Below, piece by piece: positions 28,065 through 37,600 of a stretch of 40,335 nucleotides of DNA. Positions within the stretch are counted from its first letter, which is position 1; every line of letters starts with the position of its first letter. A program made the translations under genes and the position numbers. The notes under the pieces are model-generated. The model was not told where the DNA came from, did not search any database, and saw only the letters and a program-made list of their open reading frames with translations. The stretch is taken from assembly GCA_003599505.1 (NCBI GenBank), contig QZKO01000044.1:1-40335 (forward strand), in the 5' to 3' direction. Source of the stretch: Nitrospiraceae bacterium. GTDB lineage: Bacteria > Nitrospirota > Thermodesulfovibrionia > UBA6902.

Positions 28065-29528
28065 CTAAAAAACAATCTGGCCCCTGATTTCACCTCCGGG
28101 ATTGGTAGCTGTGTGTATATTAAAATAGAGCTGGTTGGTGATCAGGGCATCGAACTGGGCCTGCGTCAGGACCGTGCCCGCCGGAATCAACCACACGCCT
28201 TGCGTCACGCCCGCCCCGCCGGTAAGGAATATTTCGATACCACCGTTTACGCCGGCCGGGCCGAGGTGAATGTGCGCGGCTATAGCGTTGCTTGTGAGAC
28301 CTGAAAAACTCACGCTTCCACTGACGGCCCTTGTGACGAGATTCACGGTCAGATTCCCCGTGCCGCTTCCTGCAGTCGCTACCGGCGGAACTTCCTGCGT
28401 CCCGCTCAGCGGCACACTGGTAGTAAAGCCGCTGCCGTAAATGAGCTGCCCTCTTATTTCACCTGCGGGATTATTCACCGTATGCACGTTGAAATACAAC
28501 TGGTTGCTGATCAGGGCATCGAACTGGACCTGCGTCAGTATCGTGCCTGCCGGCACCAGCCACACGCCTTGCGTCACGCCCGCCCCGTCGATAAGCCCTA
28601 CTTGAACAGGCCCGTTTATACCTGCGGGCGCCAGATGAATATGCGCAAAAGTGGCATTGCTTGTGAGACCTGAAAAGCTTACACTTCCGCTGATAGCTCT
28701 TGTTACGAGGTCCACATTAAGCGCTCCGGCGCCGCTTCCCGTCGTCTGGACAGGGGGCACTTCCTGCGCGCCTGTCAGGTTTGTCAGCAGGGTAACCAGA
28801 TTCCCCTGGGCCTGGACCTGGATAAAATCGAGGGCCTGCGCCTCTGTGCCGTCATGACATACAGAACATGCGGGGCCGATCCCTCCGGCAAAATTAACGC
28901 CGTGACATGTAGTGCAACTGTCTCTGAAAACGCTCCCATAACTTCCATGGAAGTGGACCGGGTCGCCTGTCCCGTCGTGCCATGCCTCTCCCGGATGGCC
29001 GACGTTGCCGCCGGGACCGTCATGACATGAGAAGCAGCTTATCCGCGATATTCCCCCGTCAAGGTCCGCGCCGTGACAGGAGATACAGGAGCTCGTATCA
29101 AATGATGCCGAAACAGGCTGTCCGCCGGCGGCGAGGACTGCGATATAATCGGATATTTCCTGAATGTCGGCCTGACTCAGATCGCTCTGTCCTCTCATCA
29201 GAGGGACCGAACTAATAGCGGACGTAATCAAAGCCGGTGTTTCCGACAAAATAGAAGTCCCGATCCTGCCGGTTGCGTCACTGTCGTGACAGATGGCGCA
29301 CCGGCTTGAAAAAAGGACCGCGCCCCTCGAATCTGATTGAATGCGTTTGACACTGAAAGCATGAAAATTATCCCTGCCGATTGAAAGAGGGTTCGACCAT
29401 CCGTCCCGATGGCGTCCCGAAGCGGAATCAAAATTTGCGTCAGGGTTCTCTTTGCCGCAGGCGGCCATTGCCGCCGCGAAGAATATAGAAAACAGGAACA
29501 GATATCCGAATGTCCTTATCTGTGACAT
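28065..29528 (-). CDS. pentaheme c-type cytochrome lipoprotein with two CHRD domains
   Basis: 487 aa from the ATG at 29528. Signal peptide with lipobox AMAAC (lipid Cys24), so anchored in the outer membrane. Five CxxCH heme sites start at C77, C148, C165, C205 and C221; the first sits in a monoheme-like cytochrome domain (residues 65-135), the others in a compact tetraheme stretch. Two tandem CHRD domains follow (about 245-365 and 370-487), about three quarters identical to each other, with AHIHLAPAGINGP and NPAGEIRGQ motifs. It overlaps the pentaheme gene upstream by 13 bp. Probably the exposed electron-transfer subunit of the cluster; the CHRD role is unknown. Confidence 0.88.
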   Translation of the reverse strand: MSQIRTFGYLFLFSIFFAAAMAACGKENPDANFDSASGRHRDGWSNPLSIGRDNFHAFSVKRIQSDSRGAVLFSSRCAICHDSDATGRIGTSILSETPALITSAISSVPLMRGQSDLSQADIQEISDYIAVLAAGGQPVSASFDTSSCISCHGADLDGGISRISCFSCHDGPGGNVGHPGEAWHDGTGDPVHFHGSYGSVFRDSCTTCHGVNFAGGIGPACSVCHDGTEAQALDFIQVQAQGNLVTLLTNLTGAQEVPPVQTTGSGAGALNVDLVTRAISGSVSFSGLTSNATFAHIHLAPAGINGPVQVGLIDGAGVTQGVWLVPAGTILTQVQFDALISNQLYFNVHTVNNPAGEIRGQLIYGSGFTTSVPLSGTQEVPPVATAGSGTGNLTVNLVTRAVSGSVSFSGLTSNAIAAHIHLGPAGVNGGIEIFLTGGAGVTQGVWLIPAGTVLTQAQFDALITNQLYFNIHTATNPGGEIRGQIVF

Positions 29529-29956
29529 GCCCTGCACCTTTCATTATTCTTCCGTCCGTGGCACTTGAAGCACAAAGCCGGGTTTATCCTGCCGTCTATC
29601 ATGTGCTGGTTGAGATAGTCGCCGCGGTGGGGCAGAAAGCGTTCCGGCGCATCCTTATATTTGTCGCTCGGCTTGATCTCTTCCTTGTTCGCGTGGCAGT
29701 CGCTGCAGAACGATTCCCTGTGACAGAGATAGCAGGCCTGCTGTCGCTGGGCCGCAAATATCCTGTGCGTAGCGCTGAAATCCGCGGTATGTTCCATGGC
29801 CGCGTACTCATCAGTATGACACTGGCTGCAAGCGGGTTTTTCGACAGCGACAGGATGTACTTTTCCCATGCTCCTGCCGCCCGCGCAATTATAAACAACC
29901 GTTGAGACGGCCGTTACCAGTAAAACCGTCAGCGCTCTGATAAAGTATCTCTTCAT
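29516..29956 (-). CDS. small pentaheme c-type cytochrome
   Basis: 146 aa with five CxxCH motifs at C43, C75, C84, C129 and C141, plus extra His residues (H56, H64, H110, H118) able to be distal ligands. The N-terminus is a signal peptide; VVYNC could be a lipobox but Asn before the Cys is unusual, so it may be soluble in the periplasm. Its ATG is one base after the barrel gene stop. Likely the periplasmic electron donor to the outer-membrane complex. I do not recognise a named family. Confidence 0.88.
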   Translation of the reverse strand: MKRYFIRALTVLLVTAVSTVVYNCAGGRSMGKVHPVAVEKPACSQCHTDEYAAMEHTADFSATHRIFAAQRQQACYLCHRESFCSDCHANKEEIKPSDKYKDAPERFLPHRGDYLNQHMIDGRINPALCFKCHGRKNNERCRACHR

Positions 29957-29957
29957 A

Positions 29958-31205
29958 TTACACCCCCGTCTTCCGGTCTCCGAACCGGTAAAGGAGTTTA
30001 AGGAACAGCTTCAGCTCATCGTCAAAAAAAGGGTTGCGGCCGTACTCCAGGTCCGCCGCAACCCTCACGTTTTCTGAGAGATCGTAGCCGGCGGCAACCA
30101 CAGCGGCATAGGCGTTTTTCACGTCATTTATCTTTTTGTCGTACGAAACATCAAAAAGATCGACAGTAACGCCGGTCTTCCCGAAACTCTTGTATCCGTA
30201 GGCCCTGTACTCGGTATACTTCTTATCGTCCGCTTCGCCGCTCATACGGTAAACCGAGAGGCCCGCGCCCCCGGAACCCGCAACAGACCACGCAAGCCGC
30301 CCTCCGTAATAATCCGCGTTTCCCGCGATATCGTAATTGAAATTTTTATACCGGGCCGCGATCAGAAGATTATCGTCGACAGAGTATGAAGCCTCCCCTC
30401 CGAGCGCTATAACCTCGTCGTTAAGGTCGATGGTGTCCTGAAAAACAAACGCGTTCGTCGTGGGTGAAGTGAAGTACCGCCTGTAATCCGCCCAATAGAT
30501 CTCCGGCGTGATCCTGAATTTTTCAAAGGGACCGAGCGCGACAAAGTATGAATGCTCCATCATGCCGGACTCGCGGATATTATAGGACGACCTGCCGAGT
30601 ATATTTATTTTTTCCACCGGAAAAAGCGATATGTCGAGGCCTCCCTCTTCCCTGAAATCATCATTTTCATTTCTCTCCTTCAGGTACGACAGGCCGGCGC
30701 GATAAAGCCCCCCCGTCTCATGGGTAAGCCTGGCTCCATAAACAAGATCACCATCCCGCCTGTCAAAGTCCGTCTCTACAGGGACTCCCCCGAACGCGGC
30801 TACCCCGAATCCGCCCTTCAGGTCGGTCCGTTTGTAAACCCCGTCAATCTGCTCAAGGGCCACGCCCTCGGACACAAACAGCCTGCCGAGGTTCACTACG
30901 TCATTGTCTGTTTTTCGCCTGAAGCTGAGATACGCGTATTGCAGATCGCTGTTGAGCTTCTTTGAGAAGCCTTCTTCTTCATTGCCTTTGTAGCGCGCCC
31001 AACCGCCGAAATGGAAAGAGACTTCTTCTCTTCCGGGGTCCTCCGCAATAAATTCGAGATACTCGAATACCGGCGAGATGGTTTTCGAATTTACCGTCTC
31101 TTCTGACCGGAAGTAGGTTTTTGACTCCCCGTCCAGGGTCAGGGCAGGAGATCGGGCCGGAAGGATAAGCAATACAATAACTGCCGCTAATAGCAAAACT
31201 TTCAT
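29958..31205 (-). CDS. outer-membrane beta-barrel protein, possible cytochrome porin
   Basis: 415 aa with a clear signal peptide (cleavage near PARSPA). The mature part is a series of alternating amphipathic strands with aromatic girdles and ends in LKLFLKLLYRFGD, a typical barrel region. About 16-20 strands are plausible from length. It is the first gene of a tight unit with two multiheme cytochromes, which is how porin-cytochrome electron conduits (Pcc, MtrB/MtrA/MtrC, Ext clusters) are built. It shows no CxxC near the N-terminus as MtrB has. A plain porin is the alternative. Confidence 0.78.
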   Translation of the reverse strand: MKVLLLAAVIVLLILPARSPALTLDGESKTYFRSEETVNSKTISPVFEYLEFIAEDPGREEVSFHFGGWARYKGNEEEGFSKKLNSDLQYAYLSFRRKTDNDVVNLGRLFVSEGVALEQIDGVYKRTDLKGGFGVAAFGGVPVETDFDRRDGDLVYGARLTHETGGLYRAGLSYLKERNENDDFREEGGLDISLFPVEKINILGRSSYNIRESGMMEHSYFVALGPFEKFRITPEIYWADYRRYFTSPTTNAFVFQDTIDLNDEVIALGGEASYSVDDNLLIAARYKNFNYDIAGNADYYGGRLAWSVAGSGGAGLSVYRMSGEADDKKYTEYRAYGYKSFGKTGVTVDLFDVSYDKKINDVKNAYAAVVAAGYDLSENVRVAADLEYGRNPFFDDELKLFLKLLYRFGDRKTGV

Positions 31206-31352: not shown

Positions 31353-31384
31353 AAAAAAGGGGGAGCGTGGGCTCCCCCTTTTTT
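31353..31384. terminator. strong rho-independent terminator
   Basis: A 14-bp perfect stem (AAAAAAGGGGGAGC / GCTCCCCCTTTTTT) with loop GTGG and T-runs in both directions. It follows the PilZ gene on the minus strand by 26 bp and separates it from the barrel operon. Confidence 0.9.
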
Positions 31385-32188: not shown

Positions 32189-32980
32189 TCATTGAACGGG
32201 TTTTGTATGGCATCTCCCGCATTCTTTTAATGGAAACGCGACCTTGCCGTGGCATACTCCGCAGTATTCGCCGCTGTAGATATGAATCATTGTATATTTT
32301 GTCGCCCCCCTTTTCACCTGGAAAATATCGGGATGGCAGATCTCGCAGCCGTTCCATGAGACGTGTTTATTATGGGAGAATATCACGTCCGACATCCATG
32401 AACCTTTCGATTCAATGGAAAAGTCGTCTCTTGCTTTCAAAGGAGATCTCTTGATGGATATGCCCTCAAGTGAATCAACGGGCTTGATGAGCCCTTTAGC
32501 CTCTGCCTCTTCCCAGTCTATCCCGCTGCCGAGCCCTTTTTGGGGCAGTTTTTTTGTAAACGTCTTAAAGTCATGCTCCTTCTCAACCTTCATCCTGTAA
32601 GAATGACATCTTCCGCATCTCCTGTCTTCTTCCCCCGCGGTCCTGTCCGCGCACGCGGCAAAAATAATTTTATTATTGAAGACCCTTTTGCCGTCATGAC
32701 ACGCGCCGCAATAAAGGCCCTTCGTATTGAAATCCGCGTTTATTTCCGTCCCTTCCGCCTCCATGGCGAACCCGATATCAACATGGCAAAGCCTGCATGT
32801 AAACATCGCCCTGTGAAGCCAGTGCTCAAACACCACCGGGGCCAGTCCGGCGTCATCGGAATAGTTGTTGATTATCACCTTCCCGTAGTCTTGCGGCGAG
32901 GTCATCTTCCCGGCCGTTGAAATATCAGGGACAATGAATATCAAACAGAGCATTAACAGTAATTTCATAAACAAGCTCAT
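32189..32980 (-). CDS. hexaheme c7-type cytochrome, two triheme modules
   Basis: 263 aa from the ATG at 32980, with a signal peptide ending near DISTAG. Six CxxCH motifs (CRLCH, CGACH, CGRCH, CEICH, CGVCH, CGRCH) fall into two modules of three. Each module opens with a FxHxxH-type His pair (FEHWLH; FSHNKH) and runs C..CH, then a GLYCGACH or GEYCGVCH step, then the third heme, as in the c(7)-type triheme domains. About 80 residues without hemes separate them. A periplasmic electron carrier that could feed the barrel-cytochrome complex. It lies 23 bp upstream of nothing shared: transketolase precedes it on the same strand. Confidence 0.88.
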   Translation of the reverse strand: MSLFMKLLLMLCLIFIVPDISTAGKMTSPQDYGKVIINNYSDDAGLAPVVFEHWLHRAMFTCRLCHVDIGFAMEAEGTEINADFNTKGLYCGACHDGKRVFNNKIIFAACADRTAGEEDRRCGRCHSYRMKVEKEHDFKTFTKKLPQKGLGSGIDWEEAEAKGLIKPVDSLEGISIKRSPLKARDDFSIESKGSWMSDVIFSHNKHVSWNGCEICHPDIFQVKRGATKYTMIHIYSGEYCGVCHGKVAFPLKECGRCHTKPVQ

Positions 32981-33045
32981 TTCCTTATAACAAACCGCTT
33001 TCATTGCTCTGTAGTTTAGCACAGATAAAACCGCGGCGGCTTATA

Positions 33046-36835: not shown

Positions 36836-37600
36836 TCACAGTGTGTTTAAAAACGCGATGATATCTTCCGCTTCCCCGTCAGACAGAAAGTCGAACGACG
36901 GCATTCTGCTGAAGGGCTGCCTTAACTGCTTTCTGATATTTTCAGGCGTTGCCGGCCTCCGGCTGACAGGGAGCTCAGGACTTCTAAGTATGCCCTTTAA
37001 TCCCGGACCGACAATCGTCTCCGGACTATAGGCATTATGGCAGAAACCGCACCGTGCTTCAAAAATGGTTTTCCCCCTGCTTATGCTTTCAGGGTCCGTC
37101 CTTACAGCGGGCCGGCCGGCCTCTTCTTTTTTCTCCCGCGCAATTTTCTCCTTGTACTGGATTATCCTGTCATACGATGTATCGGCCCCGAATTCCGAGA
37201 CGAGGAGATAATATCCTGATGATATTGCAACCATTACAAATGTAATAATCGATATCACAAGTCCGAACGTCTTTGCCTGGCCGTAGAACTGCCTGTAAAT
37301 CCTTACGTATAAGACCTTCACTCCCAGCAGGACCGGGACGGCAAGGGCCAAAACCCCGTGGAACGCGCCCCTGACGGAAAGCTCTGTTTTTGTTATGAAT
37401 ACGAACCTGAGGCATAAATATGAAATCAGCGCGAATATGATAACGTAAACAATACCGGCGGCTCTGTGGACCTTCCTGAGCGTTTCCGCGTTGAACCTCT
37501 TCCCGTCCCTTCCGAAGAGCTCGAACATCGTAAACATCCCGACTGCCGTAGCCGTCAGCAGTACCAGGGACAATATGGACTTTATAAAAAATGTCGACAT
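36836..37600 (-). CDS. membrane protein with four helices and a C-terminal monoheme cytochrome c
   Basis: 254 aa. Four hydrophobic helices in the first about 135 residues with His in KVHRAAG and AFHG, which could bind heme b, as in cytochrome b561-like or DUF420-like proteins. A charged linker (YKEKIAREKKEEAG) leads to a periplasmic cytochrome c domain: CGFCH as the heme site, GPGLKG and a Met ligand in RMPSF. It would pass quinol- or membrane-derived electrons to soluble cytochromes. Whether it binds heme b is inference. Confidence 0.8.
   Translation of the reverse strand: MSTFFIKSILSLVLLTATAVGMFTMFELFGRDGKRFNAETLRKVHRAAGIVYVIIFALISYLCLRFVFITKTELSVRGAFHGVLALAVPVLLGVKVLYVRIYRQFYGQAKTFGLVISIITFVMVAISSGYYLLVSEFGADTSYDRIIQYKEKIAREKKEEAGRPAVRTDPESISRGKTIFEARCGFCHNAYSPETIVGPGLKGILRSPELPVSRRPATPENIRKQLRQPFSRMPSFDFLSDGEAEDIIAFLNTL

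Follow-up and report, generated by a model that had tools for sequence, protein, structure and literature searches.

The closest described relatives of the locus analysed here are the porin–cytochrome (Pcc) clusters of Geobacter, exemplified by OmbB-OmaB-OmcB, which encode a barrel, a periplasmic cytochrome and an outer lipoprotein cytochrome in this order. Pcc clusters of Geobacter occur in tandem duplication, and their porin-like proteins have 18 to 22 predicted transmembrane strands (PMC4245776). OmaB is a 25 kDa protein with 8 hemes (PMC12977616), and the outer protein of the OmbB-OmaB-OmcB type carries 12. Periplasmic cytochromes with 5 to 14 hemes were described in Pcc clusters by Shi et al. 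in 2014, including the 5-heme clusters of Geobacter sp. M18 (GM18_3461-3463 and GM18_3467-3469), for which the authors argued that a 5-heme inner and a 6-heme outer cytochrome should be enough to cross the membrane (PMC4245776). The outer protein of M18 has one typical and five atypical heme motifs, and no CHRD domain is mentioned for it (PMC4245776).

The MtrCAB, MtoAB and PioAB systems follow the same principle of a barrel-sheathed cytochrome, and MtrB, a known sheath, has 26 strands (PMC7198977) and is paired with the decaheme MtrA. Another arrangement is that of ExtABCD from G. sulfurreducens, where the barrel precedes a 5-heme lipoprotein, with another lipoprotein cytochrome after that; ExtD holds 12 hemes, as does ExtA, which is encoded within the same cluster (PMC6148476).

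A three-gene locus in a Nitrospiraceae genome

The window, a stretch of 40,335 nucleotides from a Nitrospiraceae bacterium, holds a trio of this general layout on its minus strand. It starts with an outer-membrane beta-barrel resembling the OmbB sheath (31205-29958; 415 aa, with a signal peptide), continues with an OmaB-like pentaheme cytochrome (29956-29516; 146 aa, five CxxCH motifs), and ends with an outer pentaheme lipoprotein cytochrome bearing a lipobox and two CHRD domains (28065..29528; 487 aa when counted from the conserved ATG). An earlier note on this DNA had described three genes overlapping or 1 bp apart, with ten CxxCH motifs, that encode a barrel, a small pentaheme cytochrome and a lipid-anchored pentaheme-CHRD protein, and this description is confirmed. 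The five motifs in each cytochrome stand well above shuffled sequences, which average 0.05 (pentaheme) and 0.01 (lipoprotein) and reach at most 2 and 1 in 5000 shuffles. The lipobox of the lipoprotein, AMAA-C, agrees with the PS51257 pattern.

Between the barrel stop and the pentaheme start there is a gap of 1 bp, while the lipoprotein gene overlaps the pentaheme gene. The listed reading frame of the lipoprotein opens with a GTG at 29537, giving an overlap of 22 nt, whereas the start kept among relatives is the ATG at 29528, with an overlap of 13 nt (29516..29528). This ATG is the most likely site of translation initiation according to the sequence comparison, because it is conserved in relatives and lies inside the DNA of the last heme motif of the pentaheme. 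Of 50 relatives, 23 were assigned the same offset of -13, and they cover most of the clade of the window. Some further relatives were assigned an earlier ATG, although they too contain this internal start.

The trio is surrounded by genes for MutS, a PilZ protein and a hexaheme c7-type cytochrome. It is probably a transcription unit of its own, because the PilZ gene lies upstream and a terminator-like hairpin (31361..31378, minus strand) stands in between; the hairpin comes from a consensus scan only, which found 7 in the region against 4.2 expected. The hexaheme c(7)-type cytochrome encoded further upstream (32189-33022; TIGR04257 triheme domain, E 1.5e-33) is a possible periplasmic electron partner of the trio. 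Its membership in the trio operon was considered and is unsupported, given the intervening PilZ gene and hairpin. The window also encodes, at 36836-37600, a monoheme cytochrome c (PF13442) that is anchored in the membrane and resembles DUF6529 in its N-terminal part.

Homology of the barrel and the pentaheme to Pcc components

Searches with the barrel gave no match in Pfam, NCBIfam or PDB sequences, nutrient-porin families included. Its AlphaFold (AF2) model, built from 49 family rows, has 22 strands and no plug domain (mean pLDDT 86, pTM 0.77), and a Foldseek comparison with the PDB returned only generic barrels, with pilus ushers giving the best query-normalised TM (0.51-0.55) and classical porins scoring lower. 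A barrel modelled in this way, with 22 strands and no plug, would need filling, which a cytochrome could supply. Its relationship was recognised by profile, since the barrel family profile finds OmbB-type barrels in Geobacter-genus genomes at E 3e-18 to 7e-18. Of the families against which the earlier note proposed to compare the barrel, the OmbB type is matched and MtrB/PioB is not, and the barrel combines homology to Pcc porins with a modelled strand number inside their range.

The pentaheme follows the same pattern. Its profile matches OmaB-type genes of these genomes at E 8e-24, with the next match at E 0.01, and the genes found by the barrel and pentaheme profiles are adjacent, no other convincing match being present there. 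Over its full length, the pentaheme aligns with hemes 1-5 and five extra histidines of 8-heme OmaB-type proteins of 231 aa, ending where the three further hemes of OmaB begin; with its five hemes and its homology to the OmaB group, it falls within the 5-14 hemes of periplasmic Pcc cytochromes. In one Geobacteraceae genus, the 8-heme cytochrome is flanked by a barrel of 403 aa and a lipoprotein cytochrome of 752 aa, and one relative holds two adjacent sets of the three genes. These genes are taken as the OmbB-OmaB-OmcB reference because of their order, their size, the number of hemes and the tandem duplication rather than because of a name. Against PDB sequences, both the pentaheme sequence and its profile gave only NapB/NrfH matches at chance level.

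There are ten histidines in all in the pentaheme: five lie within the CxxCH motifs, and the remaining ones are H34, H56, H64, H110 and H118. All ten, together with all heme-motif residues, are invariant among 50 relatives, and their position and conservation suggest that the latter five are the distal ligands, which would complete the set for five bis-His hemes. These residues could serve as residue-level markers for spotting such conduits in metagenomes. Unlike OmaB, the inner cytochrome of the trio family usually has a lipobox: Cys24 is present in 46 of the 50 relatives, lying within a lipobox in 42, so that the protein is probably lipid-anchored in most of them to judge from the motif. The pentaheme of the window itself carries VVYN-C, which fails PS51257 and where the Asn before Cys24 fits poorly.

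The trio very probably encodes a compact Pcc-type porin–cytochrome conduit. This is the best reading because the trio is widely conserved, its barrel matches no porin family, and both the barrel and the pentaheme are homologous to Pcc components. Against it count the poor lipobox of the window pentaheme and the number of hemes, ten in two proteins being rather few for a chain that spans the membrane. The 5 + 5 hemes of the window are close to the 5 + 6 of M18, whose clusters, likened here by description only, share with the trio a 5-heme periplasmic cytochrome, a small barrel and a small outer cytochrome; the adjacent cluster duplication of M18 was also seen here in Geomonas loci.

The earlier note had proposed a possible new porin–cytochrome conduit. 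The conduit reading is upheld by conservation and by Pcc homology, but a new system is not, as Pcc clusters of the 5-heme kind had already appeared in the literature in 2014 (PMC4245776), and by its sequences the trio would be a compact variant of Pcc rather than a new class. As far as could be found, what appears to be new is the compact Pcc type in Nitrospirota, the fusion of the outer cytochrome to CHRD domains, the frequent lipidation of the pentaheme, and the start codon embedded in its last heme motif; the string "Nitrospir" is absent from the text of PMC4245776. The compact Pcc type would thereby be extended to Nitrospirota, a phylum about whose extracellular electron transfer little is known, and the locus would show how short the heme chain of a conduit through the membrane can be, with five hemes in the barrel.

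Proposed electron path and its direction

From the genes, motifs, conservation, Pcc homology and predicted barrel fold, which are the observed basis of the conduit, we infer its assembly and topology, the electron flow and its direction, and the role of the CHRD domains. The 22-strand barrel would act as the outer-membrane sheath, and the pentaheme, corresponding to hemes 1-5 of OmaB and usually lipid-anchored, would enter it from the periplasmic side to give a transmembrane heme chain. On the outer face, the lipoprotein may extend this chain by its five hemes, one of class I and four others. The first of them lies in a class I cytochrome c domain (29142..29330, minus strand; PF13442, residues 70-132, E 1.3e-9, 38.7 bits against a cut-off of 27) and is probably a His/Met heme, while hemes 2-5 form a tetraheme stretch (28833..29105, minus strand) with CxxCH motifs at residues 151, 168, 208 and 224. 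Electrons would pass from periplasmic cytochromes to an extracellular acceptor, or in reverse.

The reverse case, an inward conduit taking electrons from outside (from Fe(II), Mn(II) or a partner cell), overlaps with the preferred explanation as a sub-case of it. The direction is not fixed by sequence, and the class I His/Met heme of the outer protein may have a high potential, which would suit electron uptake; however, the best studied Pcc relatives serve Fe(III) reduction (PMC4245776), and an inward flow is considered rather unlikely, if still a serious contender.

The CHRD domains of the outer lipoprotein

The two CHRD domains (28434..28808 and 28065..28442, minus strand) are the distinctive part of the conduit, and their fusion to a cytochrome looks new. 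PF07452 matches the lipoprotein with E 4.5e-59 and 198.9 bits, against a curated cut-off of 24.1. A SOD-like fold is expected by homology to chordin, since the CHRD profile retrieves chordin domains of solved structure (E 4e-18), in which this fold is retained and the metal-binding His are lost (PMC13382577). The model of a CHRD domain is weak (pLDDT 63), and its Foldseek matches, mostly to Cu,Zn-SOD and all with E above 0.5, amounted to a lead only, later backed by the crystal structures of chordin (PMC13382577). Within the conduit, both domains would point outward and most likely bind a surface mineral, a polysaccharide or a metal ion.

Across 23 aligned bacterial CHRD domains, conservation is complete or almost complete for an HxH motif, a further His and an Arg, and the weak model places HxH on strand 4, the His on strand 7 and the Arg at the start of strand 8. 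In Cu,Zn-SOD, copper is held by ligands 46, 48 and 120, plus Arg143. The conserved His and Arg of the CHRD domains presumably fall at positions resembling this copper site, and the two domains could be read as copper-binding SOD-like modules, lacking the bridging His and the zinc site of SOD, that would make the conduit copper-tipped. The hemes would then feed surface copper centres, acting against oxygen radicals or as an exchange site with the outside. This reading is improbable on present grounds, although conduit surface chemistry would have to be reconsidered if the CHRD domains do hold copper.

The heme-CHRD fusion was found in the window and three close relatives only, and in the rest of the phylum the CHRD proteins examined stand alone and carry no hemes. 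Chordin and the stand-alone secreted bacterial CHRD proteins share PF07452 homology with the outer protein, whereas the fusion to hemes belongs to the window group only; a literature search for CHRD together with cytochromes found nothing relevant. In contrast to the 12 hemes of the outer protein in the OmbB-OmaB-OmcB conduit, the window has 5 hemes plus CHRD, and the outer protein is the variable part of the whole family, with 2 to 22 CxxCH motifs across loci. Outer lipoproteins are also exchanged in Geobacter conduits (PMC6148476). The outer end of the conduit can thus be regarded as a swappable module, which here employs non-heme domains too. Separately, CHRD proteins and pentaheme or Oma-type genes co-occur in 17 of 396 Nitrospirota genomes (46 and 45 carriers, respectively; hypergeometric p 8e-7, a value that ignores shared ancestry).

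Relation to Ext and Mtr conduits and to nutrient porins

An ExtBCD-type conduit without ExtA, composed of a barrel, a 5-heme lipoprotein and a lipoprotein cytochrome, would account for the layout of the trio and for the heme number of its middle protein, both of which match ExtB-ExtC of G. sulfurreducens. In addition, extBCD without a nearby extA and the exchange of outer lipoproteins have been described (PMC6148476). However, in four Geobacter-genus genomes the family profiles match OmaB/OmbB-type genes only, the pentaheme profile dropping to E 0.01 for its next match, a comparison that involved no named ExtB or ExtC sequence and genomes in which the presence of extABCD is unconfirmed. No ExtA dodecaheme lies beside the trio, among its MutS, PilZ and hexaheme c7-type neighbours, and of the NCBIfam Ext models (selenite/tellurite operon), ExtS alone gave a hit, at E 0.83 and far under its cut-off. 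An Ext assignment is very improbable.

Membership in the Mtr family was rejected, as the barrel lacks PF11854 and the inner cytochrome has 5 hemes instead of ten. Neither MtrB_PioB (PF11854) nor OmcA/MtrC (TIGR03507) is matched in this genome, and the 22 modelled strands with a pentaheme differ from the 26-strand, decaheme design of the Mtr type.

That the barrel is an ordinary nutrient porin, merely adjoining two cytochromes that work elsewhere, is hardly credible: many barrels of such a length are porins, but the trio with its overlapping genes is conserved across several phyla, and the barrel has 22 modelled strands, no plug, no porin-family match, and homology to OmbB-type barrels.

Distribution and evolution

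Two observations named in the earlier note as arguments against a conduit, a nutrient-porin match and a trio confined to this genome, turned out otherwise. When 84,980 species genomes were scanned for the pentaheme by means of its alignment, 78 loci emerged in Nitrospirota, Geomonas, Geobacter, Pelotalea, Geothermobacter, other Desulfuromonadales and Holophagales; at most of them, a barrel lies directly upstream of the pentaheme and a lipoprotein with multiple hemes follows downstream. Among nearby genomes, the order of the trio is kept in seven further clusters, which include a paralogue in the same genome, genus and family mates, and two clusters of another member of the class. Within Nitrospirota, the pentaheme profile matches in 45 of 396 genomes, about half of these matches being larger relatives.

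In the cytochrome tree, pentahemes are split from the 8-10-heme Oma-type proteins by one branch with a support of 98. Thirteen sequences from Geobacteraceae/Desulfuromonadales nest within the Nitrospirota set, which suggests that they arose by lateral transfer, in a tree with weak support for many of its inner branches. The distances among barrels correlate with those among pentahemes (r 0.885), and shared ancestry contributes to this correlation.

In Geomonas, Nitrospirota and Holophagales, decahemes of the OmcA/MtrC family (TIGR03507) adjoin the 5-heme trio, and these neighbours support a role of the trio in extracellular electron transfer. Such genes lie at L085:9660-12710 (TIGR03507, E 1e-110), at L062:1389-3821 and at about 18 further loci.

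The paralogous trio of the same genome (G000:C75:6189-8907) lies on a different contig and has a lipoprotein with 6 CxxCH and no CHRD domain; the next gene encodes a citrate synthase (PF00285). In another genome (G003:C37), a barrel and a 9-heme Oma-type cytochrome precede a gene very similar to that citrate synthase gene, as if the type of conduit had been swapped at the same site. Some family members encode, after a distant barrel, a 500-aa protein with 19 CxxCH and a pentaheme-like stretch inside (L043:9847-11349, L045:7963-9465 and L046:8013-9515). Finally, in the nearest relative of the window, the product of a divergent gene beside the trio (L037:7365-9632) is 755 aa long and has 6 CxxCH as well as MopE-type motifs (PF11617), which are putative metal-binding motifs.
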